From positions 1-64,000 of the forward strand of contig JAANBB010000081.1 in NCBI GenBank assembly GCA_014621425.1: a stretch of DNA of 64,000 nt. The letters run 5' to 3'. Below the pieces are notes generated by a model that saw only the letters and a program-made list of their open reading frames with translations, was not told the DNA's origin and did no database searches. This stretch comes from Cylindrodendrum hubeiense (taxonomy: Eukaryota; Ascomycota; Sordariomycetes; Hypocreales; Nectriaceae). Each line of letters begins with the position of its first letter. Position 1 is the first letter of the stretch. Positions 46,693 through 64,000 of the stretch are shown piece after piece. The position numbers and the translations under genes are program-made.

Positions 46693-47691
46693 TCATCGCA
46701 CAGTATATACCCCGGTACTGACTTCGTGGTATCCTCTCTTGCCAACCTTTGCAGTCAACTCGCTCTTCCATGGCTTGCCCTGTCCAATCAACTCGACAAC
46801 CTTTTCGAATGTGTAAACTGGCTTCCATCCGAGATCTCGAACAAACTTGCTGGAGTCGTAGACGCGGTCGATTCTGGCTAGATATCCCCAGTTGGCATCG
46901 CGAAAGATATTTTCGCAAGCGGGAACGACGGCTTGAAAGACCTCCTTCGGGTTGCTGTCGAGCTTTCGCAGTGTCTCGGGGTCGTTGGCAAAGGGAGGCG
47001 GCGCGCTGATAACGTACTTGCCCCATCCGATGTCTTTGGCCTTGGCCATGGCGCAGACGGACGCGCGGACAATATCCTCAATGTCGCATCTGCGGTAGGC
47101 CAGTTCGAGGACCTTCAGGTTTTCGTCCGCCAAAGCAGTTCGGCGGTCTTCGTCGTCATCCTGCTCAGGGAAGAATCGGCTGGTGCGCAGAACCAGAACC
47201 GGCATGCCTGTCTGCTTGTGGACGAGAAAGCACATGTCCTCGGCGGCAACCTTGGTGGCGCCGTAGATGTTCTTGGGGATTGGAACGACGGACTCTTCGA
47301 TCCAGGCAGCGGGGGATCCGGGTTTGGGGCTCAGGGCGGCGCCAAAGGTGCTTGTCGTGCTGAAGAAGACGAAACTATCGACCTGCTTCTTGGCAGCTTC
47401 CTCAAGCAGGACCAGAGTGCCGGAGATGTTGGTGTTAACAAAATCTTGCTTGGAGTGGCTTTCGACGTGAGGTTTATGGAGAGTAGCCGCGTGAAGGACG
47501 TGTCGAATTGGGTTGTTTTGCAGGATGGAGGCCACAAGCTCGCGATCCGCAATCGACCCGACGTGGTGGGTGTTGTCCGAAGCCAGGATGTCGATGCCGA
47601 CGGGGGTGAAGCCCATCGTCGGGAGCGAAAGCATGAGAGCCGTGCCAAGGTGGCCGGACGAGCCAGTAACGAGAACGTCGTAGGGAGCCAT
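46693..47691 (-). CDS. NAD(P)-dependent epimerase/dehydratase (extended SDR)
   Basis: A 332-aa extended short-chain dehydrogenase starting at ATG 47691 (MAPYDVLVTG). The nucleotide motif TGSSGHLG is at residues 9-16, and the catalytic YGATK appears about halfway. The FFSTTSTFG and VLRTSRFFPEQ segments fit UDP-sugar epimerase/dehydratase-type enzymes (GalE-like), as does the C-terminal DRVYDSSKFVRDLGWKP. The upstream open extension to 48000 is low-complexity and probably untranslated leader. Its substrate, probably a nucleotide sugar or other hydroxy-ketone, is unknown. It is intronless. Confidence 0.87.
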   Translation of the reverse strand: MAPYDVLVTGSSGHLGTALMLSLPTMGFTPVGIDILASDNTHHVGSIADRELVASILQNNPIRHVLHAATLHKPHVESHSKQDFVNTNISGTLVLLEEAAKKQVDSFVFFSTTSTFGAALSPKPGSPAAWIEESVVPIPKNIYGATKVAAEDMCFLVHKQTGMPVLVLRTSRFFPEQDDDEDRRTALADENLKVLELAYRRCDIEDIVRASVCAMAKAKDIGWGKYVISAPPPFANDPETLRKLDSNPKEVFQAVVPACENIFRDANWGYLARIDRVYDSSKFVRDLGWKPVYTFEKVVELIGQGKPWKSELTAKVGKRGYHEVSTGVYTVR

Positions 47692-50161
47692 TTTGATGAG
47701 TTGCGTTGGCGGAGAAGAGATGAGTGATAGCTTGAATTTGTATGCGGGGTGAGGCGTTTCGGCGGCGAATGACTCAACTCTGCCAAATACCGGTCGCAAG
47801 CTGCAGACGAGTCGCGTTCCGAGTGGTGAACTGGAAGCGAAAAAAAAGAAAGAGAAATGAAGTCTCGTGAGGCGAATGTTCCGAAGTGACACATCCACAG
47901 AGACCGACGGTGATTCACGGACGAGCCGGCTGCATGCATCGTGGGCCACAGCGTCTGATTCACGGAGTCTTCTGGGTTGGCGATCTTGAAGCGACGACAT
48001 CTGAAGCGACGGCCCCTGAAGCGGCGACTTGCTTTGGAGGGTTTATATCGCCGAATTCAGTGATTCCTTGGTATTCCGTCTCATTTTCGTGTCCTCATTC
48101 CATTGTGTGTGACCTGAGCTTCAACGTTGTGGTGCGACATCTTGCATGATGCAGACCATGCGCAACGAAGTGCGCATTTCTTCACAACTTTTGTCTGGCC
48201 AACTTGAATTGTGATAATGAGTGTTCAGAGCAGCGAATAAAAAGAGACAATGAGAGCTGCAGAGTTGGTCTTCATGTAATATTCAAGAGAACTGCGCCTA
48301 TCTACCCTATGCCGTCCGATGCTCTGTGCCTAGGATGGATAGAGTGGGTGGAATTGTTAGCACCAAGCCACTGGCCCAAAAGCTTTCATGAAAAGGACAA
48401 TGAATGAACATGACATCGCATTCCAAGAATCAGCATACCTCACTTGGCAAATGGCTTGCCCTCGAAATAGTGATCACGCAAGCGACCACCAAGAGGTTGA
48501 TGGCTCGTGAGTTCTTCATACCACCTCACTAAGTCAAGAGTTGGGAATGAATCCCCATTCGAGAAAACTGGAGTCGATTATACACGGCATGCCTGAACAG
48601 GTCGATAATAGCAGAGTGTCTCAAGCTTCAGCAATCTCTGGCCCAAATGAGTGCAAGAGACACAAAGATCCATAGTGTGGATCGTGACTAATTTCCTTGT
48701 CCCTGGTTAGCGTACAATTACACGCAGATCTTCCCTTGAAAAGATCCTGCGTTAGTCCATACTACAAAAGAGCCCACTTCTCAGCTTTCTATCAGCTATG
48801 GAGGGTGTACATTCGCACACAAGAAGACAGAACATGTACTACCAGCAAGATCAAGGGCCATGCATTGTCACGTGTAATTCGAGATCCTCCATCACGGCCA
48901 AGACTCGGCTCTAATCTAGCCGAACTCCTCGAAATTATCTTTAGCGGCCTGCATATTATCACATGGAATAAGAGAGAAAACTTCCTCGCCGATCAAATGC
49001 ATGGTTGTCCTGAGACATAAGCTTGGCTTGTTATATTATTGCTGGCTGCCTTTCAGGAAGTCATCTTCTTCATGATACCCCGGCTACATCGCCTGTGCGC
49101 GCGGCTCGCAAGTCGTCGGCGAGATCTCCTGCAAAGTTACATTGGAAGAAAAGCTATTTTTCCACCTATAACCAGCTACACGTCCTGTGCTGATGTCGAT
49201 CGATGGCGTTTAGTGTGCGCCTTGCATCCGATCAGCGAACTTTAGCAACTAGCGACTATGATCCGCCGCGGAAGAAGGATGTACTAAGCGCATCCTGCGC
49301 TGATTGTATGCGGGCTTGCCGATGCACCTTCCGACAGATGTCGGCGTTGCCTTACCAAGAAGAGCACTTTTGCTGCTGAAGACCTCCGGGTCAGACGGAT
49401 GCCCGGTCCGTGTCAGGCGGAAGTCCGGTCCGGATGACTAGAGATCCGGAATCTGAGACACAAAGACTTATAGTGGCTGCAGATACGAGGAGCCTAGAAT
49501 CTGGTCTCTAGGCGCCTCTGACGCGTTTGAGATAGTCCTAAAATGCAACACAACCTGATGGCGTGCCTCTGGCGCCTGGCCCATCTGTGATGGACCAACA
49601 TCTGTATTCAACCCGTACACTGGAATGTACACCCAGGGGCCACCCTGGACGCTTCGGTATGGAGCCAAGAATAACTCGCCCTTGGTTCCTGGACTATCTC
49701 TGGCAATTTCGCGTCGGAGCACCCGCACTCAGTCCTCCGCTGCCCATAACTGACACCACTCCCATTCGTAGATGATTGAACAATTCATGGCAAACTGCTT
49801 CAAAATAATGAGAAGTCATATACAAGCGTTGTATATCTACCGTAAAATAAATTATGTCCAACATCCTTACCCAACGGTCTATTGTGTTTCATTCCGATAT
49901 ACCCTTAACCGATTTTCTTTTGGCGAACCTGGTGATGCGTTTCGTCTCATTGGGGAAGTAGACGGAGATGCTTCTGCCCAAGAGACCAGCCCGCTACCAG
50001 CCAATCCCACATTGTTAGAAACACAAAAGGCACCAGCTTCTCAATACTCTTTAGCTCTTTTGAAAGTGTGACATTTGAATATATAGACGAAAGCCTAGTA
50101 GATTTATCTTCGAGACTATTCAAGAACCTCTTTTTTGGTGCTCGCCGTTGATCAACCCATG
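47692..50161. other. gene-poor region before the isocyanide cluster
   Basis: About 2.5 kb with no recognisable gene. The short frames (for example 48697-49020 plus and 49468-49728 minus) have no domain or splice continuation. Around 49380-49460 several CCGGTCCG and TCCGGA phrases cluster, a local GC-rich repeat. It could mark the left border of the cluster. Confidence 0.5.
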
Positions 50162-51374
50162 TCACTCCGCAACCTTTTCCTGGAAATAACTAGGCCGACC
50201 ACCCTCGTAGACAATTTCTAGTCTGTCATCTTTTTTAAATTCACCCATCGGCGCACTCAACCATTCCCCGTCCGCCATTAAAGCGACGCTGCAATGCCAA
50301 GGAGTGGTGAATCCGGTCTTGGTGTTGAGCAAACTCATGGATACTTTCTGTTCCCCCGTAGATTGATGGATGGAGAGTCGTAGATGGTTTGGAAAAGCAT
50401 CTTTGACCGCCCCAGCAAAAGCCTGTTTAGGTGTTAGCTAGAGAACACTAGCGGTATTGCTCCGATGGCAGTGGTTAACGTACGTATCCTCGGATCAACA
50501 TCTCCTTGGCGAGGTACTTGACGTCTCTCTTGTAGCCGTTGTTTGTTCGATTCTTGCCCGTTGGGAAGATATATTGTAAGTCTGACTCGAGGAATCTCCG
50601 ATATCCGCAGTAAGTCATGCGCGTGTCAGGTGTGGTGGCGATTTCATGATCGATGTCGATATCTTCCTTGCCGTATTTGCCAAGAAGGAATCGGCGGAAA
50701 TTGGTGGCATTAGCAACGTAGGTGATCTCCCCAAGCTTCTCTGGCAAGGGGAAGCTTATGAGGTCTTTAAGCCTAGAGAACTCAATATGGGTAAAACCCT
50801 TCTCAATAGACATAGCGCGTAGAGCCTCTCCGTACGCCCAGGTATCACGATCCGGTATGCTTAACAGGTCTATAAGAACCGATTTAATTAGCGAATGATC
50901 AAATTAGAAGGGACATATGCACAAACCATTATAAACAAGACCATCCGAGATAATAGTGAGTTGAGCTCCCGGTGCATACACGTCTGCTATACGCACACAC
51001 ATAGTGTTCAACCGTTCTAAAGCCAGCTCCTCGGCCTTATCCGGTAGGATACCAAAAACTTTGTACACCTTATTTGCTGACTTGAATGGAAACGCTGGAA
51101 GGCACATGTCAACCTGCTTCCCCGCCATGACAAACTCGTCAATGACTGAGAGGAACTTGGGCATGCCCGCAGCAAGCCGCTCGATGGTGTCATCGAACTT
51201 ATTGAGAGCGTATTCAAATATTATGGACAAAATCTTGGAGGAAGTCTCTGCCACCTTCATCTTCACTTCAATCCCCTCATGGGGGACAAAGGAGGTGATA
51301 TCAGTACCTGGAGCAAACCCCATATCGGCAACTTGAGGAACAGAGAGAGGAAGGACTTGAGACAGGACCCGCAT
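50162..51374 (-). CDS. isocyanide synthase (DIT1/PvcA family)
   Basis: This is a predicted isonitrile (isocyanide) synthase of 364 aa. By family knowledge, PvcA/IsnA enzymes convert the alpha-amino group of an amino acid to an isocyanide using ribulose-5-phosphate as carbon donor, and yeast Dit1 belongs to the same family. Exons are 51374-50927, 50869-50484 and 50422-50162, all in frame. Family signatures are FPFKSANK (residues 95-102), PDKAEELALERLN, IISDGLVYNDLL (about 141-152) and IPDRDTWAYGEALR. The C-terminus contains the PWHCSVALM and EIVYEGGRPSYF segments typical of fungal members. It is a stand-alone synthase domain, divergent from an A-T-transferase NRPS-like gene with a shared ~1.05-kb promoter. 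A Dit1-like spore-wall (dityrosine) role is less likely because no DIT2-type P450 is adjacent. Confidence 0.9.
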
Positions 51375-52420
51375 GGTAGGTAGCGTTGGAACAGACGATG
51401 ATAAATTGAAAGATAAACGAACCAAGAGTGATTGAGTCGAAAATAAAACCACAATGAGATATTAAGACCCAAGAGGCAATAATAGCTGGATCCGGCCCTC
51501 AGTCGCCACACACACCCGTTGACACGTCTATGTATCACAAGGCATTGGCGGAGCAATTTGTTTTTACATTTTTCTTTCCCGCAACTGTAAACGGTAAGAA
51601 TCCTACTACACCCCAAAGCCTCATGACACGCGTCCGGTGCTGCTGACACTTCAGGCATGCATGCCGTGCTACGTCACCTCAACATCACTCATGCAGATTT
51701 ATCAGCATGAGACCATGCATTATATGAGGCAAATTCTTGGTTTGTGGATATTTTCGTAAAACCAACTTTAATTCGTTCCGATTGGATTCATTCGGGGTTT
51801 ATGTAGCCGGAGGATTTAGGACATGGTGTTGATGTGTGTGGCTCAGCATAGGCGCGAGTCAAGTGCTAAATCAGACCAGTTGAGCCTCAATATAAGCCTA
51901 ATAAGTTCTACTAAGCTCATGTATGTGCCCCACCACGGTGAGATAGACAATGCGTCTGGGTCGGCCCGAACAGTACTTGTAGACAATTGTACAAATTCTC
52001 GGGTCAGCCCGGCGTCATTGGTTATGGCCGTGCTGCTTTGTGGGCCTGGGAAGGAGATGTAACTTAGATTGAGGGTGGGATGCATCATCCGGACGGACAA
52101 TTACGTAGGCACAGCCTTATAACCACTCATCGGGGATGACCATGTTGGGAATCGTGCATGGTACGTGGCCAATGGTGCCGCCCTCGAATCTTCTCGCCAA
52201 CCAATGCAGTATTGGGGGGCAGTATCGCAATACGACGAGACAAGCTGTAAGACGGGCATGTTCCGCGTGAGCTGATAAGAAATCAAAACAAGAGCGTATT
52301 GCACATGTACAGGATGACCTTTGCGCCGTTTTTTTTATCATACGCCAGCCCGATTCAAATCCTCCCATCTTCTCCGGAATTTCGCTTTAAACATCTTACA
52401 TCTAAGAGTTGATTGCAGCT
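51375..52420. promoter_or_regulatory. bidirectional promoter of the ICS and NRPS-like genes
   Basis: About 1.05 kb between the divergent ATGs at 51374 and 52421. It contains no gene. I looked for the Mac1-type TTTGCTCA element and found no exact copy, only weaker GCTCA phrases (TGTGTGTGGCTCAGC at 51835-51849 and AAGCTCA near 51913). The shared position suggests coordinated expression. Confidence 0.6.
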
Positions 52421-55400
52421 ATGGTAACCTCAACGGAGTACGGCAGGAGGCTTATTCCTCAAATTCTAGACAGCCTGGCTTTTTCCCAGCCAGATCGCAT
52501 CATATACTCTATAGCAACGTCGTCGGATATTTACAATGGGCTTCGTCAGGTATCTGCTCGCGTGTTTGCAAACGCCGTCAACAAAACTGCTTGGCTACTC
52601 CATAACCAGATTGGAGAACGCCCGTCGATACAGACGGTGGGCTATATCGGACCTCGTAAGTTCGAGAAGAACCATGAGCTGCATAGTTCCTCGAATTCAT
52701 TAATTGACGATATCCAGATGATCTCCGACACATTCTGTTGACATATGCGTGTGTCAAGGCAGGCTGCACGGTACGTCAAGTCCTTCCACATGCGACAAGT
52801 GAAACTCACGATTTCATTGCTGATGTTGCTTGTCTCTGAAGGCCTTGTTTCTTTCTCCCAAGAACAGCACTGAAGGAGCTCTAGCGGTCCTTGATGCAGC
52901 ACAATGCAATGTCTGGGTCAAGCCTTGGGGTAATACTTACCCTCTAGTGGAAGATTTCCTAAAGCAACGCACCATGGAAGTTCTCGATCTCCCTGAACTG
53001 GACGAGCTTCTCGATGCTGAAGCAACCGAGCACTATCAGTACGACAAGACGTTTAACGAGGCCACCCAAGACCCATTCTGCCTCCTACATACATCTGGTT
53101 CGACGGGACTGCCAAAGCCTATAGCATGGTCTAACGGTCTGATTGGCACAATGGATGCTATAAGGCTTCTTCCGCCAACCCAAGGTGACAATGGGATGGT
53201 CCCGTGGACTACCGGTTGGAATGACGGCGATAGAATATACTCGTCCTTTCCTATGAGCCATGTAAGTTCCCTTCTTGACTATCCCAAGACACAAGATATT
53301 AAGCATAATAGGGAGCTGGTATTATTATGAATATCCTCTTGCCTTCCCTCTTCGGCTTGCACTGCATTATGGGACCTACAGGTGTAATACCCAACATGCA
53401 CCTGATTGATTCTATTGCAGAGCATGCGAGAATCGATATCTGGAGTATGATTCCGTCGCTAGTTGATGAGCTCGGTGAGACGCCCGATGTACTGGCCAGG
53501 TTCAAGTCGTCGAAATTTATTTGCGCATCTGGTGGTGAGTATACCTTCTATCATTGCCCGCCGACCTCCCCACGACCAAACACTAACATGTTAATGCAGG
53601 TCCTGTCAGTCCAACCAGCGCTTCTAAAGTGAACGATACAATCAGGGTCCTAAACCTGACAGGCACAACGGAAGGGTTGTTTATAGGCAATCTTTGGGTA
53701 GATAGGGAAGATTGGCTCTATTTCGCCTTCCACCCTTTCTCTGGCTTTGAATTTAAGGAGGTGGAGCCCGGTTTGTATGAGCATTGGATCCATCGCAATG
53801 AGAATGCGTCTCTTTTCCAGGGGATATTTCACACGTTCCCGGACCAGAAGACTATTAATCTCAAGGACCTATACATCAAGCACCCTGCTAAGCCAAATCT
53901 TTGGGCTTACAAGGGAAGGAATGATGATATTGTTGTCTTATCCAATGGCTATAAGATATCGCCCTTGGATACAGAGGCACTGGTAACAACCCACCCAGCG
54001 ATCGAAGGCTGCCTTATGGTAAGTAAAACTTACTCAAGCTCACACATGAGCCTCAAGAGATAAGGACCAAAAAGCTAAGAAGACCTACCCTAGATCGGAT
54101 CAGGAAAGCCCCAGGCCGGCCTGCTCATCGAGTTGAAGGATCCAACTTCAGGAAACGACGAGCTCTTTCAAAGTATATGGTCTACGGTGGAAAGAGCCAA
54201 TACGATTTCTCTTCATAAGAATCAACTGCAGAGAGACTACATCACTTTTGCAGAGCCAGACAAGCCCTTCATCCGCACCGACAAGAGAACTGTTAAGCGA
54301 CGCGCGACCCTGGAACTGTACGCTGACTACATCGAGCGATTCTACAGCTCTCGGCTAGAGGAAGAGGATACTCAGTTCCTGATGATTGACACAAGCTCGG
54401 TCGAGTCTATCATGCGCGCCATCCGCCACATTTTCGGCTCCTTGTTCTCTGCGGTGAAAACTGTCTCGCCAGGCGACGACTTGTTCAGTCTCGGGCTTGA
54501 CTCGCTTCTTGTATTTCGAGTGATCAAATCCATTCGGGCTGCTACTGGCCTGCATGATCGGCTCTCTCCTCGACATCTCTATGCAAACCCCACACTTGCC
54601 AAGTTCGCCGCTACTATTTCACGATTGGTGGCCGAGGCGAAACAGACAACCAACGGTTCATACGACGATTCCATTGATCCGGTTGTTGCCAAGATGAGAA
54701 AGATGATGGCGTTGCATAAGTCGCGACTCTCGTCCAAGGTCAACCCATTTGATCTGATGAACCCCAACATCTACGTGGGGATGAAGTTCTACTTCCCTCT
54801 CCGCGAAGGAGCTCGTTTCGAACAGGTATTTAAAAGACTACAGGAGGGGCTCCTCCGCACAATGCAGTTGATTCCAGAGTTGGAGGGCAAAGTAATGCGT
54901 TGCTCGGAACAAGAAATGGGACACAAGAATGGCGATCTCCGCCTCACACTTCCCCCCATTCCATCGACAGCCACCCCGGACAGTAATTATACGGACTCTA
55001 CTGGACCGAGGCAGCTGCGCTACAAAGACTTATCCGATAGCCTCCCGTCCTTCGACGAGTTGCAGGCTGCTGGATTCGTGCCATCGGCATTCAAAGACGA
55101 GGTTGTTCTTGAATGCCCATGGTTTCCGCCATTGCCCGCCGACGTCCTGATTGCACAGGCCAACTTTATCAAGGGCGGCTGTATCCTCGCTATTAATGTC
55201 CACCACGCAGCATTCGATGGCGTCGGTGTCATCACTGCCCTGAGGGTTTGGGCTGAAAACTGTCGACATGTCCAAGGCGATACGTCAGCGGTTTGCAGCT
55301 GGGTGGATCCCGAAAGCCTGAACCGCAGCTTGCCGCTCATTATATATGAGCTAGAAGGGTATGCTAAGCCAGCTCATGAGGTAGATCCCAATGTATGGGG

Positions 55401-56265
55401 ATTTCTGGGGTTTCCAAACCCAGCCGAGCTCCAGAATGGAAACGGAACCGTCGAGATCCTCTCAATGGAATCAATCCTCCCTACACCACCTCCTTTCCCT
55501 CGGAAGTTTGCCTGGCCCCCAATTGCTCCCGAGGATGGCCGCTCTATGAGGTCCACCACATTTCTCATTCCGTCTGAGAACGTGGAGAAGCTGAAACAGA
55601 AAGTGCTTGCCGACCCGGAAGCTAAAGGGGTCACATCTATCAGCGACATTGTGCAGGCTTTCTTCTGGCGCGCAGCAATAAAAGCGCGATACCGGGTAGC
55701 AAAAGAACTTCGTGGAGAAACATTTGGGTCCGAAGATATCTCTATCGTCGAGATGCCTATCGATGCCCGCCCGTACTTCTCCTCGCTGCTCCCATCATCG
55801 TATATGGGCAGCTGTCTTGTCACAAACCGACCCTACATGCCCGTGGAGGAACTCTGCGCGCCGGAGACGAGCCTCGGACGCATTGCGTATATTTTCCGTG
55901 AAGCTGCCACATGCATTACGCCATCGCTTGTGCACGATGCATTTACGCTTCTACAGTCCGTGCCTGACTATGGCATGCTCACCAACGCATGCATGGGTCT
56001 TGCAGGCATGCATGCCATGATGAACAACATGATACTATTCCAGACGAGTGAAATCTCGTTTGGTGGTGAGTTCTTCGCCAATGAGGGCGTGCCTGACACC
56101 ATGCGAGTACAGATGGACCGATTTAACACAGCGTTTCGGCTATTAATTATCCATCCAATGCGTACAGATGGAGGCGTTGAGCTGCTACTGGGCACACTTC
56201 CTGAAGAGTTTGACATGTTGACAGCGGATGAAGAATTCACAGAGTACGCGAGGTTTATGGGATAG
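52421..56265 (+). CDS. NRPS-like protein: adenylation-thiolation-acyltransferase (A-T-Tr)
   Basis: A 1173-aa multidomain protein from six exons: 52421-52655, 52718-52770, 52842-53261, 53312-53534, 53600-54018 and 54094-56265. All joins restore frame and family motifs. An ANL adenylation domain spans about residues 1-500, with HTSGSTGLPKP (A3, 179-189), TGTTEG (A5, 331-336) and KGRNDDIVVLSNGYKISP (A8-like). A thiolation domain has its phosphopantetheine serine at 587 in SLGLDSLL. A C-terminal transferase domain, from about 650, has HHAAFD (His821, Asp825) and an SFGGEFF segment, as in trichothecene acetyltransferase-type enzymes. There is no condensation domain. This order equals the part of CrmA-type ICS-NRPS-like enzymes that follows the synthase domain (from memory). 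It likely activates an amino-acid-derived substrate and transfers it to an acceptor. Confidence 0.9.
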
Positions 56266-57368
56266 TCCTGGGGCAGGACATCGAATTTGGACCAAGTGCG
56301 ATTGAAAACATTTTGCCATATTTTCTAGATACTCTGCGATTGGCGAGCAATAACACAAAAAGCACTACTAGGATCGAGATAGACTGAATTACTGCCAATT
56401 TACACTTTGGACGAACTGATAAAGTCGAGAATCAAAAGCTGACGCCTTGTCGTATACAATGTAGCCAAATCTCGTGTGGGTTCAGCACTCCGTGCAGGAG
56501 GTTGAAACATTGCGATGAACGCCATCCAGAAACTGAATAATCTTAAGGCGTATGACGTATAAACTGATGTACCAAGTATCCGCCGATCTCGATGGATGGT
56601 GGCTTACCCAGAGCGGGCCGGCTTATGGTGTTGGTCTCACCCTCCATCTCGGATACATCGATCGGTTGACTTTCAGTGAGCTAGTTGGCGCAAGATAGTA
56701 ATCAACCGGCCTTTTCCTGCAGTGGCGTGCAGAAAGTTGCTCATACTCGCTCAAAATTCAATCGAATGTGCAAAGTCACCACCTATAATGAATACAACGG
56801 CACGAGGTAACGGCAGGGTTCCAGATGTAACCCTCTCGTTAATAGGTACGTAACATTCAAAGCCTCTTGTATACGAGTGCCTCTTCCATCTTATCTATAG
56901 TCATGTAACTCTACGTGATGGACAGGCTCTGGATACTGTCGCAGTGACATGGACGTTAATACATATCTGCGCTACTATAGTGCTCTGTTTGTAACATATT
57001 CTATATTAAATCGAATTCGGGCCGACTCACTTCATGTCCAACCATGTACAAAAGTTGGGTCGCGCGGTGCATGCACGAATACAATACATTGGTCAAATCA
57101 AATTTCGGGTTTTGTGAATGGAGTGCTACTTGGCGGTGAGTGGCATATCTGAGAAAGTTCCCAGCAAGTCACTGTGTACTTCGCCATAGTATGGGCAATG
57201 AAGACTGCTACGAAGTACGTACAAGTTGATCGCTCTCTAATTATTACTCCCCTCGCCATCTTTGAAGGCTGTCTTCATTCTTAAAGTCCCGTTCTTCATC
57301 CTCCCCATATCTTCTCTGTTTCTTATTCCTCTTATCTCACCCGAATCCACTTAGTCGCCAATTATCCC
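56266..57368. other. intergenic; promoter of the MFS gene
   Basis: No gene is recognised. It contains the candidate copper-response-like motif at 56736-56752 and, close to the MFS ATG, a CT-rich leader. A short open frame near 56949-57152 has no family similarity. Confidence 0.5.
56736..56752 (+). promoter_or_regulatory. Mac1/CuRE-like motif (candidate)
   Basis: GTTGCTCA followed nine bases on by CGCTCA; the first matches seven of eight positions of the yeast Mac1 site TTTGCTCA. It lies about 630 bp upstream of the MFS ATG. A single short match can occur by chance, so this is a weak candidate. Confidence 0.25.
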
Positions 57369-59147
57369 ATGGGCGAGTCCCAGAAGCAACAGGCTATGTC
57401 ATCATCGTCGCCATCGCAAGTTGATGACCCTGCCGCGGATACAAAACCCAAAATCGTTATCAACGACACAGGCCATGACCGAGACACAAATTCTAGCGAC
57501 GGGGAGCCGGTCAATTTGGATGCTCAGGCCGGCGTGCAGAACATCGAGGCTGTCACCTCAGTGTGGACGACCACCTCTCTGATCGTCGCCTACGTGATGA
57601 TCTGGATCATATACTTCGTCATGCTTATGCAGCAAGGAGCCCTAGCAGCCCTGACTCCCTTCGTCACCTCTGCCTTTCAGGAACATTCACTCACACCTAC
57701 CGTCACCGTCATTAGCAGCATCATTGGTGGTGTATTCAAACTCACCCTCGCCAAGATCCTTGACATTTTTGGTCGACCTCAGGGATATTTACTCTCCATC
57801 ATCTTAGCCACACTCGGTCTAATCATGATGGCTGCATGTAATACCGTCGAGCTATATGCCGCAGCTCAAGTCTTCTACACAGTCGGTCAAAATGCCTTGC
57901 TATATAGCATCTCAATCTTTATCGCTGATACGACTTCATTACGAAACCGAGGATTCATGATCGCCTTTGCCTCCTCACCTAATCTTATCACCACCTGGCT
58001 TTCCGGCCCAATCTCCGAAGCATATCTAGGGGGACCAGGCTGGCGCTGGGCTTTTGGGACCTTCTCAATTGTTGTCCCTGCCATTACCCTCCCGCTATTT
58101 TTCCTATTTATGTATAATTTCAATAAGGCAAAGAAGCAAGGAATTGTTCCCAACCGTGAGAGCCAAAGGACACCCTGGCAGTCTTTTGTCCATCATTGTC
58201 GGGAGTTCGACGCTGTTGGACTTGTTCTACTATCTGCCGGTCTAGCACTTTTCCTCCTACCGTTCAATATTTACTCCATGCAAGACCAAGGATGGCGTGC
58301 CCCCCTTATCATTTGCCTAATTATATTTGGATTTATTCTCATTGTTCTGTTTACTCTTTGGGAAAGGTTCTTCGCCCCTATTACCTTTATCCCCTACACC
58401 TTGCTTTTCGATCGTACAGTCCTCGGCGCCTGCGTTCTCTCGGCTGTCCTCTTTGTCAGCTATTACTGCTGGGCTAGTTATTTCAGCTCCTTCTTAATGG
58501 TTGTGTTCAACCTAAGCGTTACTGACGCCACCTACGTCTTTAATGCGTATAACGTTGGCAGTCCTTTATGGGCACTCGCTGTGGGCTGGCTGATCCGCCA
58601 GACTGGTCACTTCAAGCCAGTTTCCTTATGGCTTGCTATTCCTCTGCATGTCCTTGGATTAGGCCTTATGATCAATTTCCTGCAGCCTGATGACCATATT
58701 GGCTACGTCGTTATGTGCCTGGTTTTCGTTGGTTTTGCTAGTGGTGCTATCGTCATTTGCGATCAGATTGCTGCTATGGCTGCCGCCTCCCACCAACACG
58801 TTGCTGTCGTCTTGGCTGTCGAGGCGATGTTCTCTGAGATTGGCGGCGCCATCGGCCTCACTGTCGCTGCGTCAATCTGGCAAGATATTTTCCCTACGAA
58901 GCTGGCTGAATATCTTCCTGCTGAAGATTTGCCCAATCTGGCCATCATCTATGCCGATCTAAATACCCAGCTGATGTACCCGGTGGGCTCGGCTACTCGA
59001 ATCGCCATTCAGCATGCTTATGCTGACGCCCAGAAAATGATGCTGATTGCTGGTACTGCCGTTTGGGCTGTTGGTTTTGTGGCGACGTTTTGCTGGCGAG
59101 ACCTCAACGTCAACAACATCAAGCAAGTTAGGGGACATGTCATTTAA
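57369..59147 (+). CDS. MFS transporter of the siderophore-iron-transporter type (SIT)
   Basis: An intronless 592-aa plasma-membrane transporter. A hydrophilic N-terminus of about 65 residues is followed by roughly 14 hydrophobic segments, the number typical of the siderophore-transporter (SIT, MirB/Str3-like) family. Segments such as GGVFKLTLAKILDIFGRP, FYTVGQNALLYSIS, NRGFMIAF and the late EIGGAIGLTVAASIWQ match that family. SIT proteins import ferric siderophores or other metal chelates, and some act as exporters. Lying in the same orientation behind the A-T-transferase gene, it could move an isocyanide product or its metal complex (inference). Confidence 0.88.
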   Translation: MGESQKQQAMSSSSPSQVDDPAADTKPKIVINDTGHDRDTNSSDGEPVNLDAQAGVQNIEAVTSVWTTTSLIVAYVMIWIIYFVMLMQQGALAALTPFVTSAFQEHSLTPTVTVISSIIGGVFKLTLAKILDIFGRPQGYLLSIILATLGLIMMAACNTVELYAAAQVFYTVGQNALLYSISIFIADTTSLRNRGFMIAFASSPNLITTWLSGPISEAYLGGPGWRWAFGTFSIVVPAITLPLFFLFMYNFNKAKKQGIVPNRESQRTPWQSFVHHCREFDAVGLVLLSAGLALFLLPFNIYSMQDQGWRAPLIICLIIFGFILIVLFTLWERFFAPITFIPYTLLFDRTVLGACVLSAVLFVSYYCWASYFSSFLMVVFNLSVTDATYVFNAYNVGSPLWALAVGWLIRQTGHFKPVSLWLAIPLHVLGLGLMINFLQPDDHIGYVVMCLVFVGFASGAIVICDQIAAMAAASHQHVAVVLAVEAMFSEIGGAIGLTVAASIWQDIFPTKLAEYLPAEDLPNLAIIYADLNTQLMYPVGSATRIAIQHAYADAQKMMLIAGTAVWAVGFVATFCWRDLNVNNIKQVRGHVI

Positions 59148-59869
59148 TTCCTCGACGGCCGACGAAGATTTAAAACATAGATTTGGTGCGATAGAATAAT
59201 AAACAGTATAATTAGTGAAGGCATCCCGGAAACATATCAATACCGTGTGAACGTACCGCAAATAGCTGGATGGAGTGGGCTGGTCTGGACGGACGGGAGG
59301 TGATAGCAACCTGACCTTTTCTGGTCACCTCACCTATTGTTTGTTCGAAATGGAGTTAACTGAGAGAAAATTTACACAAACGATACTAGGCCCACGCACA
59401 GATCTCCCTGGAACAAATGGCTAAGCTCGCATAGATGTCCCCCAGATTCATCATCAACCTGGGCCCCATTGTCTCAGTGGCCGACCTAATATTCCCGGAG
59501 TTCCTACTAGTTGCTCAGGATATCTGCGAACGAACCCCTCTGAATGAGAGTGATGTTCTGGCAAATAAGTTGGCCGCCGCTTGGACCTCGACGTGTCAGT
59601 CGTCCAACTGAGATATTCTGGAGGAATAGACGGGCGTGTCTACCCTCTGCCTATCCACGCCGCTATTGACGGAGAGCCACGGCAACTCGCTCCATCTCAC
59701 GCCGACGACGACAGCGACGTGCCAACTGACCTCCACCAGCTCGAGTTCAAAGAGGATACCAATGTCCCATGAAAAACGTGCACATCAATCCAACCAATGA
59801 CAATGCCGAGCCGGAGATGGCGGCCCTTTTGAAGGTTCGCTAATCACATCGATTACTAGAAGAGTAGTA
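59148..59869. other. intergenic after the MFS gene
   Basis: The 3' flank of the transporter gene. The short frames have no domain. Nothing else is recognised before the repeat element. Confidence 0.5.
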
Positions 59870-60062
59870 TTATTTGCACACATGCAGGTTGCTATTCGCA
59901 CATAGATGCAGTTTTAACACCTAAATCTTAGCTACATCATGTGTGTACATGTCCTTGACCTAAAGATAAAATAAGGAAATAAATACATAAAGAAAATCTA
60001 ATATTAGCGAATAAAGAACAAAAATAAACATAATATTAGGGAATAAATAACTAAAATAAGCA
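59870..60062 (+). mobile_element. MITE-like AT-rich element, copy 2 (one end only)
   Basis: About 190 bp similar to the minus strand of 30578-30872. It begins with TA then TTTGCACACATGCAGG, has an inner CTATTCGCACATAGATGCAG, the phrase GTCCTTGACCTAAAG, and AT-rich DNA including ATATTAGGGAATAAA. The opposite terminal repeat is missing: the sequence runs directly into the acyltransferase stop (60072), so the copy is truncated. Most differences from copy 1 look like transitions and small indels. Confidence 0.6.
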
Positions 60063-60071
60063 TTCAATCAA

Positions 60072-61620
60072 CTACCTAATACGCTGCCAAGTTTGCTCTA
60101 TGTAGCTTTCCAACTTTTCCCAATCTCCTGGATACAGAAAAGCAGAGATCCAGTAATTACCACTCAAGTCTTTCCCCGTGATAGCAAAACAATCTCTCTG
60201 AAATCGATTTTCGCCCAAGGATTGGCAGTGCATATACACCGGTTTTCCTGCTGGTGTGCCAGCATCGATAGGTGAAGTCTTGGAGACGGCTGGGCTGAAG
60301 TCGACGGCGTTGAACAGATCGAACTTGGTCCAGTTGGAAAATACCACTAACTGTGAACCTGGATCTCCATATAGCGGTTCACTCTTCTCATGTCCAAGCT
60401 TTCTGAAAATGCGCAGTTGGGCACGGATCTGCTCATCTGTAGCCTGCTGTTGAATGCTCAGGCGCACTGCATGTGCCAGCTCCCCAAGAGACGCCTTCAA
60501 TAAAACCTCGGCATCAACTGTAGTATACATAGCACCGACCATGTTCTGCACGTATACACCGGTCTCGAAAGGAACGTCGAGCCGACTCGTGATGTCGAGG
60601 GGGTTGAATATCAACGCCGGGCGTGTTTCTCCACGAGACTGGGCGACGAATCTTGATGCCCAAGCTGTGAGAACATCCCCATCACTGAGAAAAGGGGCGT
60701 TGGCTTTTCCGTGCATGGCTTCGAGCTCTTTCAGCGATTTTAGCCTGAGTTGTGAGACGAATTGACGGGGTAGGCACATAGCACGAGACTCCACTGTTGG
60801 ATGCCAAAATACAGTCCACAGCAGTCGAATAACAAACCTAGCAAATCCCCAGCCTTTAATTTCTTTCGGTCTCAGAGAGTACGGTGACTGGATGTCTGCG
60901 TCAGTCCCTACACCATCCAAGACATCCTTGCGAGCTCCCATCAAAGCCGGCACCTTGTTCTCGTCTTGCAGCGCCGCAGACCAGGCCGAGAATATTTCTT
61001 TCACTCCCAGAGCACCAGCGACTGCATGTGGCCAAACAAGAGCAACAAGAGTTGCGTCAACAAAAGAAGTGACATGAAGACCGAGTATTGGATGATCGCT
61101 GCAGAGGTAGTCTTGCAATGTAACTGGTCCGTCTGAACTGGCGCTGAAATGCCCGAAAGTAGTTGGTCCTGGTTGTAGAGAAGCGCCATCGGTCGCCTGA
61201 GGCAGTTGGCTACCAAGACTATGTTCTTTGATGGCAACATTAAAGACTTCCGTGGTAAATCGAATTGCTGGACGCTCCTGGGTAAACTCCTTTGGCACGT
61301 GGATTTCGAGATAACCATCGGACTGGATAGAAGCAATAATCAGCTACTCGAAGACCAGTAGAACTCAGCCCGTTTCTCACCTGCGTTCGAAGTCGGCCGC
61401 CAAGCTTCCTCCAGTCGCCTTGTCGAATCAACCTTTCGAGGCCATCACGTAGTTTATCAGCGTCCAGAACGTGATTGAATCGTAGGATCTCGCTTAAAAC
61501 GATGACACGTCCTGTAGATAGATTGTCGAGAAAATAAAGTGGATAAACCTCGTCAGTTTCTATTATCGGATGATGCGTCGTGTTGAACAGGGAGCTAAAT
61601 AATCGAGTCAAGGCTTGCAT
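60072..61620 (-). CDS. CoA-type acyltransferase with altered HxxxD motif
   Basis: A 496-aa protein of the transferase (BAHD/trichothecene acetyltransferase-like) fold, from exons 61620-61381 and 61322-60072 joined in phase 0. The first exon (80 aa) carries the N-terminal part with PLYFLDNLSTGRVIVLSE. The catalytic histidine is His179 in WPHAVAGALG. The expected aspartate four residues later is replaced by glycine (HxxxG), so the motif is incomplete. The C-terminus contains VFSNWTKFDLFNAVDFSP, which covers the DFGWG-equivalent region. Members act on secondary-metabolite hydroxyl or amino groups. With the altered motif it might use only the histidine base, serve another role or be inactive. It is the last recognisable gene of the cluster. 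Confidence 0.85.
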
Positions 61621-64000
61621 ATTGGTAGACTGTAGCGCAGAATGATGAAATGAAGGATGTCGGGTAACGGAATGAATATAGATGACGTGGGATGACGTTT
61701 TATGTTCCCTGGGTGTTGATGGAGGAGTAAGATTCGCAGCATAATATGTACCTCTCGAAAGGAATCAAAATACTACCACGGCATTAGAGCAAACTTGCTC
61801 ACTGCAGTATCACAGCATAAGCCACTTCTTCTGCTCCAATAGATCCGATCCGCACAGTTGGCGGGATTTACTCCCTTGTCCTGGTACCTACAATCGTCTG
61901 CATTCTCTTTCCTCATCAGTACGTCATTTTCTTCCTATTGCTACAAGGACAAATCCCAAGACCACGAGAGAATTCAATTACCCAGACTGGGACTCTTCCG
62001 ACATGAAGATGTCCCTACCGAATGCCGAGAGATCAGCGTCTTGGAAATCGCTACTTGGATCTGTACCAAACAGTAGTTCGTCGAAGACCAAGTCTAATTA
62101 ACTCATCATGGAAATGTTCTATATATGCGTGCATTGAAGCACTCTGGGCAAGCAGATTCGATGAGTCAGGGAGAAGAGCCTTTATCCATTCGATCGGTCG
62201 GTGCTACTTCCTGCTCTGAGGTCTACCATTGGCTTGCAGAATGCTTCCCAATCATCAAGCGCCGCAGGAATCCCAACCCAGGAGTGTAGATGATCTCCCA
62301 CCAAACGAAGAGGACACCAAGCGCTGGGGGATTACACACTCCACACACATATTTCAAGCTATCTAGGTAGTCAAACGTATGATCTATCCTCCTTCACCAT
62401 TGATTGTCTCCATTTCGCTAAGACACATAGCTTGAAGAAAGTCCAGAGTCACTATGGTGCAAACAATTATCGGCCCAGGCACACGGCTAATCTGTTTGCC
62501 AGTCAGTCAAACGTTCCGGTGGACCATTAATTTGGATAATTTGCTCATTTCCATTACTCGTTAGCAATCAAGAGGTATTAGTATGGATAGCCATACTATT
62601 AACCAGACATAGATCAATCATCTGGATCATAGCTTGGGTCGAATCGTCATGTTCTGCAGTCCAAGCTTTGAGGTCAAGCTTCAGCGCGCATGGATGCCCT
62701 GCACTTATAGAGAGCCTAACCTCTAGAGACTAGTTCTGAATCACTAAAGATTAGGGGACTCATAGGCCACCTCCTAAGTTTGCAGCGAGTCTAAGCCCTA
62801 AATGTCAGGCCATTGGCACTACTCAATAAGGGACTTAGCGCTCTGCCCTAAGTAAATGAAGCAGCGCGTGAGTCATCCCTGCTCATCGAGTTCAGGCCCT
62901 TGGAGATGCCCCGTTGGCCAACATCAACAGGAACGAGGATGCTGAAGACCTGCTGCAAATAATGACAGAAACATTCATGAAATCTGATTGTTTCAAGCGC
63001 TTTTGAATCGAGGTATGGCAGTGTGATTGTGGTGATTGCTCCCTTTGTAAAACGCACGAGTGTTTGCCGTTGTGCTTGTGGTTGAAGATGATGACGAGCA
63101 ATGAGTAGTCATCTGATGGAAGACGAGAGCAAACAACCAAACTATGCAACAAATCACTGCTTTGATTGAAGCAAACTAAAGGGGATTCAATTCTACACCA
63201 GACCTTGACTCAGTGTCGTCTGAAGCAGCGCGTTCACCTTCTGGCAGTGAGTCACGGTCCCGTAGCTATAATAACGCCTCCACTTCTGCATTGCCTATTT
63301 CTTTTCACTCCCTACACTTCCAACTCACGAGGTGAGTCTCCATCCATGTTGCTGGTCTCCCTAGCCAAGCAGGTTCTCACCCCAACATCGGCCGGGCCCT
63401 GGTTAAGTGTCGTTGCCACCCCTAACCCCCACCTCGACCACGGCCAAACGTTGCTGTGTGGATGAGCCTCCGAGTTATGAACCCTCCTAATATTCTGAGG
63501 CGTAAGTGTTCTTCCCTCACCTCAATATCAGGTTGATGTCTAACCACAAGTAGTGCAGTGTCTCATCAAAATTGCGTCGCCCGAATTGGGAACGGTGCTT
63601 TCGAGTATATCTGCGGCCCCGAGATCGGTAAGTCCTCAGCACCTCAGGTTCGCCTTGGTTTCTAACGTCTGTAAGTAAAATTTCTACCAAGTATCTCTGG
63701 TGTCGGCAATACAAGGCAGCCTGTTTCTGGGTAAATGGCCTTCTCCACGGCCTCGGGTCGATCTAACCTTGGCAGATCACCAATCCTGCACAGTATGCTG
63801 TGTGTTTGAAGGCCGCTGCTAAGCCTACATTTCGTTATATATTACATTGACCGATCGAAAGCGTGGTCTGACCAAGGAAATGAATGCTAAGCGGTCTACA
63901 TGTGATATACTACTATCATTAGTACGGGCTACGTCCTCGAAGAACTCGCCGCTGGTGGTTATCAGAAACCGCTAGCTCGGAATCAGTGAAATGCCCGCGA
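61621..64000. other. region beyond the cluster, no gene recognised
   Basis: Apart from the acyltransferase promoter I see no domain-bearing frame. Short frames such as 61858-62076, 62848-63057 and 63166-63465 show no family similarity. A hydrophobic stretch near 61861-61930 could be the start of a membrane protein, but no continuation is visible. Confidence 0.45.
61786..61801. promoter_or_regulatory. inverted pair of copper-response-like elements
   Basis: AGAGCAAACTTGCTCA lies about 170 bp upstream of the acyltransferase ATG at 61620. The minus strand reads TTTGCTCT and the plus strand CTTGCTCA, so it is an inverted pair around the core TTTGCTC bound by yeast Mac1 and its relatives. Yeast Mac1 targets often carry paired sites. 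The match is exact for one 7-bp core and one mismatch for the other. Functionality is inferred. Confidence 0.4.

Follow-up and report, generated by a model that had tools for sequence, protein, structure and literature searches.

Is the four-gene locus at positions 50162–61620 of a contig from the soil fungus Cylindrodendrum hubeiense (Nectriaceae) an isocyanide pathway of the crm type, and how does it differ from the known one? The window, i.e. the whole stretch of DNA analysed, comprises the first 64,000 nucleotides of contig JAANBB010000081.1 (labelled C779), and its gene models are predicted exons. The original prediction placed at the locus an isocyanide synthase (ICS), an enzyme resembling nonribosomal peptide synthetases (NRPS-like), a major facilitator superfamily (MFS) transporter and a second acyltransferase, and compared the set with the copper-responsive crm pathway. 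Isocyanides are copper ligands, often with antimicrobial activity, and, to our knowledge, few fungal ICS pathways have been characterised. All four genes were recovered as open spliced models whose outer coordinates fit the predicted span exactly. An isocyanide able to bind copper is very probably what they produce, and the change of finishing enzyme relative to the known pathway hints at another end product. They point, with about even confidence, to a split form of the crm pathway, in which a valine-type isocyano acid would be activated and passed to an acceptor other than mannitol, with transport by a crmC-like protein and tailoring by a BAHD-type enzyme.

The isocyanide synthase

The predicted membership of the synthase in the DIT1/PvcA family is confirmed by its match to PF05141 (DIT1_PvcA; E 6.4e-100, 334.6 bits with a cut-off of 26.4) over profile positions 1–270 of 273, and its residues 77–359 align with residues 49–318 of PvcA (3e59; E 3.4e-34). 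A search of the genome for the ICS domain yielded 13 exon matches at five places, namely the window and contigs C777, C579, C1 and C154. The window ICS shares 80% identity with a split ICS on C579, 69% with a fused CrmA on C777 and 65.5% with Aspergillus fumigatus CrmA, followed by 55% with the ICS on C154 and 32% with a Dit1-like ICS on C1. In a tree with a Dit1-like outgroup it sides with the CrmA-type synthases and not with Dit1. A grouping with Dit1, proposed in the original prediction as a refuting test, was therefore looked for and not found.

These comparisons leave next to no probability to the explanation that the gene encodes a Dit1-type spore-wall enzyme surrounded by unrelated neighbours, which draws on the PF05141 domain common to both kinds of enzyme. 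It fails because the window ICS is 69% identical to the fused CrmA of its own genome but 32% to the Dit1-like enzyme of that genome, which has a cytochrome P450 neighbour of its own. The 65–80% identity to crm-type synthases, the tree and the crm-type NRPS-like gene that adjoins the ICS all speak against it, and this explanation was dismissed.

The kinship with CrmA in a split gene pair agrees with the original prediction of a crm-type cluster in a variant arrangement. CrmA is a single fused protein in A. fumigatus, and the window ICS and the adenylation–thiolation–acyltransferase enzyme are, as judged by sequence, the counterparts of its two halves. CrmA gives rise to a valine isocyanide and to crmA-dependent mannitol esters (PMC9381783). 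The product of the window ICS is most likely an isocyano acid, and by analogy with CrmA its substrate would be L-valine. Seven ICS proteins of the window lineage show five fixed differences from 25 fused ones.

The NRPS-like enzyme and the acyl acceptor

The adenylation–thiolation–acyltransferase organisation of the NRPS-like protein was correctly predicted, with the Pfam domains AMP-binding, AMP-binding_C_3, PP-binding, TRI-like_N and Transferase each above cut-off and the motifs HTSGSTGLPKP (adenylation), LGLDSL (carrier) and HHAAFDG (HHxxxDG) retained. By sequence, the closest solved relative of its transferase domain is TRI101. The domains have diverged unequally from A. fumigatus CrmA, the adenylation domain being 69.4% identical and the transferase domain 53.8%. 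Within the window lineage (seven rows, excluding a long-branched F. anthophilum/C. acutatum subgroup) the two are conserved about equally, with identities of 79.9 and 78.0%, respectively (21 pairs), whereas against fused CrmA proteins the corresponding values are 70.2 and 55.7% (105 pairs). In the matched control, the F. oxysporum-type split lineage compared with fused CrmA, they are 68.1 and 61.7% (120 pairs), while the C579 lineage resembles that of the window (66.4 and 53.2%; 45 pairs). Fixed differences between six window-lineage rows and 40 fused ones number 10 in the adenylation region, one in the carrier region and 33 in the transferase region.

The best reading of this divergence pattern is that the isocyano acid would be the same and the acyl acceptor another. 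With the ICS and activation domain conserved but the transferase domain strongly diverged, and with a BAHD-fold protein in the place that CrmB and a hydrolase have in the canonical cluster, the acceptor is probably not mannitol. In the pathway that we favour, the ICS would act on a free amino acid, L-valine being the likeliest, to give the isocyano acid, which the adenylation domain would activate and load onto the carrier domain; the isocyano-acyl group would then be passed by the C-terminal transferase domain to an alcohol or an amine, probably other than the mannitol used by fused CrmA. The crmC-like MFS protein may move the product or its metal complex, the BAHD-fold protein may modify the acceptor or the product, and the four genes would presumably be expressed together.

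A rather unlikely alternative is that the locus is a functional duplicate of canonical crm, making the same valine isocyanide and mannitol esters with a gene still in two pieces and with other helpers. The closeness of the ICS and adenylation domains to fused CrmA fits such a duplicate, as does F. oxysporum, in which the split FOXG_09770 is adjoined by crmB, crmC and a hydrolase under Mac1 (PMC11563359), and Plenodomus lingam (L. maculans), a maculansin producer (PMC9381783), has a 527-aa ICS without NRPS domains among the homologues listed here. Yet the genome already owns a canonical crm cluster on C777, no CrmB or hydrolase types were found among the window frames scanned, and the transferase domain has diverged past the matched control. 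FOXG_09770 is P0195 among the NRPS-like homologues listed here and is a split NRPS-like protein, and we infer that the F. oxysporum cluster is split; the published labels are transferase family protein for FOXG_09770 and ICS-NRPS-like enzyme for crmA (PMC11563359).

The BAHD-type acyltransferase

A second acyltransferase is present, as the original prediction held, but this second ACYLTRANSFERASE differs from CrmB and belongs to another family (PF02458, BAHD). The window protein barely passes PF02458 (23.6 bits, cut-off 22.7), and P0241, a homologue 74% identical to it, scores 37.2 bits. With an AlphaFold2 model of P0241 (33 homologues supplied; predicted local distance difference test score 89.5), Foldseek ranked TRI101 and plant BAHD enzymes at the top (PDB 2zba, 8dqo and 6dd2; E 4.5e-22), and the fold of the window protein, as modelled through this homologue, is that of BAHD enzymes. 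No significant alignment was obtained between P0241 and the crmB-type AATase of C777. NCBIfam matches fall far below cut-off, and the only PDB match of the acyltransferase by sequence, conglutinin (E 0.0029), was taken as chance.

The HxxxD motif of BAHD enzymes is replaced in the window protein by HAVAG (HxxxG). Among 120 homologues, 66 carry H..D and 45 H..G. A contig shared with a listed ICS or NRPS-like homologue was found for seven of 52 homologues without the Asp versus none of 65 with it (Fisher p 0.0027). The linked homologues come from two Dactylonectria, Niveomyces, one member of the Naviculisporaceae, Clonostachys rosea, Apiospora hydei and a contig recorded as Sphagnum balticum, and contig sharing is weaker evidence where contigs reach megabase size. 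The count omits two gapped rows, one of which is the Apiospora marii homologue, located two tags from an ICS (PG991_007517/007519). The contig filed under the moss S. balticum is about 91 kb long, carries close homologues of the NRPS-like protein (P0170) and the acyltransferase (P0243), and probably derives from an associated fungus.

Both the contig linkage and the A. marii tags argue against the improbable case in which the ICS and NRPS-like genes alone make up the pathway and the MFS and BAHD-type genes are chance neighbours; the MFS gene, moreover, belongs to the subfamily that flanks fused crmA. What this case has in its favour is that the split pair on C579 lacks, on its whole contig, any homologue of the window MFS or acyltransferase gene (the MFS gene lying about 7 kb from that pair is unrelated), and that the cluster promoters have no long word in common.

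The MFS transporter

In Pfam, the MFS protein matches MFS_1 and, more weakly, TRI12; a sequence search of the PDB gave no match for it. Its identity to the two MFS neighbours of the fused crm cluster on C777 is 62 and 57%, and on the basis of this kinship it is tentatively called crmC-like. The label 'SIT-type' is not supported as such; the assignment rests on likeness to crm-flanking MFS genes and not on a SIT signature.

Possible copper control and points against the proposed split pathway

Several observations weigh against the non-mannitol split pathway. The divergence of the transferase domain may be explained by faster drift of that domain. Won et al. attribute mannitol acylation to an as yet unidentified acyltransferase and found crmB-D dispensable for the crmA-dependent metabolites (PMC9381783), so that any part played by the transferase domain of fused CrmA is itself presumptive. 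The linked A. hydei acyltransferase homologue has lost the motif His as well, which makes catalysis by the acyltransferase doubtful, and the protein may not be catalytic. An MFS gene on C177 (L031, C177:31500-37500) is equally similar to the window MFS protein (60–65%) and has no known crm link, the genome search for ICS domains having given no match on C177. Finally, the Mac1-type word TGCTCA is absent from the promoter region between the ICS and NRPS-like genes, where about 0.6 copies would be expected at the rate of the window, and no 9-base word is common to all three cluster promoters.

Copper control of the four genes as a whole set is not supported by the promoter sequences: a Mac1-like site, AACTTGCTCA, is found at the acyltransferase gene and a weaker one, AAGTTGCTCA, at the MFS gene, but none in the promoter of the core ICS/NRPS-like pair. 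The word AACTTGCTCA was picked after a joint view of the Ctr and cluster promoters. It occurs 142 times genome-wide versus 128 times for the reversed word, i.e. at background overall, and its chance of occurring in about 3.15 kb of cluster promoter is near 0.009 at genome density, by our own arithmetic after the fact. It is located upstream of three of five Ctr loci (C346, C7 and C257, not C650 or C351) and also upstream of both C777 MFS genes. The Mac1 protein of F. oxysporum binds DHNTGCTCANNN, and in the absence of copper the expression of crm genes rises there, FOXG_09770 among them, although the variability of FOXG_09770 and crmA kept both off the main list (PMC11563359).

The TACTTGCTCA sites at C579 lie in coding sequence, within a short repeat at the C-terminal end of the ICS. 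The last exon of this ICS (L014:8539-8868) encodes a C-terminus ending in the short repeat QVKADEQVKADDQVKADNQ, which generates coding TTGCTCA words.

A core promoter without TGCTCA would also suit a cluster that looks intact but is silent or decaying and yields no product. Such a state is very unlikely, given that all frames are open, the motifs are retained and close relatives occur in many fungi.

Distribution of the split form and the proposed fusion of CrmA

Nickles et al. reported that gene cluster family (GCF) 8, in which the NRPS is a gene apart from a monodomain ICS, is confined to Fusarium and stands nearest to crm, and proposed a later fusion of ICS and NRPS (PMC10153163). Among the best 120 of 411 NRPS-like homologues examined here, 75 were scored as lacking a fused ICS (a few of them, P0193 and P0224 for instance, being truncated models) and 45 as carrying one. 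Pairing of contigs by their lengths, which covered 92 of 120 ICS rows and 109 of 120 NRPS-like rows, revealed 25 contigs on which a split NRPS-like protein accompanies a monodomain ICS among the matches listed. Fused proteins are hardly possible in this match, because the ICS search admitted proteins of at most 1.75 times the query length. The 25 contigs include Thelonectria, Niveomyces, Fusarium, Ilyonectria, Colletotrichum, Xylographa, Gyalolechia, Calogaya, Clathrospora, Plenodomus and Oidiodendron, of which we take Xylographa, Gyalolechia and Calogaya to be lichen-forming. Adjacent tags of the two genes are MMC26_002878/002879, FDECE_103/102 and NX059_005571/005570.

In the careful NRPS-like tree (41 rows, midpoint-rooted), all 13 fused rows come together in a single clade (96/95), the other 28 rows being split. 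The window protein groups with those of Dactylonectria, Xylographa, Niveomyces, Thelonectria, Colletotrichum, F. decemcellulare and F. anthophilum, separately from the F. oxysporum-type lineage, and Fusarium is present in two split lineages, that of the window among them. The trees are consistent with the published direction of fusion and extend the split form, which is widespread, beyond Fusarium; the root of the NRPS-like tree is not firm, being a midpoint in the careful tree and a very long outgroup (5.1) in the quick one. A second fusion is conceivable, because the quick NRPS-like tree, the quick ICS tree and the careful ICS tree (42 rows) place the fused protein of Lojkania apart. The careful ICS tree requires two changes, with one change in 1% of bootstrap trees; a single fused clade was not rejected by the approximately unbiased test on the ICS (p 0.092), and the Lojkania model could be a merged annotation. 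In the quick ICS tree, annotated monodomain ICS of Pyrenophora, Lophiostoma, Trichoderma atroviride and Penicillium tannophilum fall inside the fused clade; our guess is that these are truncated models, and they were excluded from the careful ICS tree.

Four monodomain ICS, mostly from lichen-forming fungi (P0011, P0015, P0018 and P0024), carry the ABC transporter N-terminal domain PF14510, and one of them also PF00005. This may reflect either another fusion partner or merged gene models.

The presence of split clusters in several ascomycete groups, lichen-forming ones included, offers a natural comparison in which one isocyanide block is probably combined with several acceptors, and it makes the published CrmA fusion hypothesis testable with many more taxa than Fusarium. 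The split clusters also draw attention to a BAHD-fold protein that lacks HxxxD and is linked to such clusters. A bolder proposal, which we hold tentatively and as less probable than the split pathway itself, is that the window represents an ancient crm lineage, its genes still separate, in which isocyanide formation and activation were retained, the acceptor changed and the HxxxD-less BAHD-fold protein serves as a dedicated partner, so that three parallel crm-type loci would put the same reactive isocyanide on different scaffolds, with the split cores beyond simple Mac1 control.

Organisation of the locus and of the other ICS loci

The genome contains three crm-type loci, one fused (C777) and two split ones of different lineages (C579 and C779). 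The C777 locus is a canonical crm cluster comprising the fused CrmA (g989), a crmB-type AATase, an alpha/beta hydrolase and two MFS genes, while C579 carries the second split, divergent ICS/NRPS-like pair (g4414). On C1 the P450 gene is located about 2.5 kb from the Dit1-like ICS, and on C154 the ICS is followed by a TauD domain.

Within the window (Table 1), the ICS and NRPS-like genes are divergent, and the MFS and acyltransferase genes are convergent. The acyltransferase model is the most plausible among 22 open splice solutions, and G7Z17_g5136 of C. hubeiense matches the NRPS-like protein at 100% identity over 88%.

Table 1. Cluster genes and promoter features in the window
Feature	Position	Strand	Description
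ICS gene	51374-50927, 50869-50484, 50422-50162 (50162..51374)	minus	3 exons, 364 aa, PF05141
ICS/NRPS-like divergent promoter region	51375..52420		1,046 bp, TGCTCA absent
NRPS-like gene	52421-52655, 52718-52770, 52842-53261, 53312-53534, 53600-54018, 54094-56265	plus	6 exons, 1173 aa
AAGTTGCTCA, weak Mac1-like site	56734..56743	plus	626 bp upstream of MFS start codon
MFS transporter gene	57369-59147	plus	intron-free, 592 aa
BAHD-type acyltransferase gene	61620-61381, 61322-60072	minus	496 aa, one predicted 58-bp intron (61380-61323)
AACTTGCTCA, Mac1-like site	61792..61801	plus	172 bp upstream of acyltransferase start codon; sole window copy

The left flank contains an epimerase-type gene at 46696-48042. 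In the right flank (64001-74000), one of five scanned reading frames has a Pfam match, an ankyrin-repeat frame about 11 kb from the cluster. No P450 was matched among the window reading frames scanned. An AATase-type gene, the nearest to the cluster, is located on the minus strand of the same contig at 13871-15502, about 35 kb from the ICS; with an identity of 22% to the crmB-type AATase on C777, it was dismissed as a distant crmB.

Comparison with known systems

The arrangement of ICS and NRPS as separate genes has already been published for Fusarium (PMC10153163). No title or abstract describing this cluster was found in the open-licence literature, a scope outside which most subscription journals lie.

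The window shares with A. fumigatus crmA-D the same domains in the same order (ICS; adenylation–thiolation–transferase) (PMC9381783, PMC5974471), as well as an MFS transporter and a further acyltransferase. It differs in that two divergent genes encode the ICS and NRPS-like portions, no Mac1-type site is present in the core promoter, the second acyltransferase is of the BAHD type and not an AATase, and crmD has no counterpart on the window contig, where no Ctr match (PF04145) was found; crmD is also missing from many other crm clusters (PMC9381783).

The split crm clusters of Fusarium (GCF 8, PMC10153163; F. oxysporum, PMC11563359) resemble the window in having a monodomain ICS that adjoins a separate crm-type NRPS-like gene, and the F. 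oxysporum cluster also has a crmC-like transporter. However, the latter contains crmB and a hydrolase, most of its promoters carry Mac1 sites, and its NRPS-like protein belongs to another lineage. Most GCF 8 clusters also have a terpene synthase (PMC10153163), whereas PF19086, the one terpene synthase family searched, matched C152 and C4 only and not the window contig.

The canonical crm cluster on C777 is close to the window in its ICS (69%) and MFS proteins (62 and 57%) but has a fused CrmA, an AATase and an alpha/beta hydrolase. TRI101 and the plant BAHD enzymes (2zba, 8dqo and 6dd2) share the fold of the window acyltransferase as modelled on P0241 but differ from it in sequence (about 17% identity), and the window protein has HxxxG in place of HxxxD.

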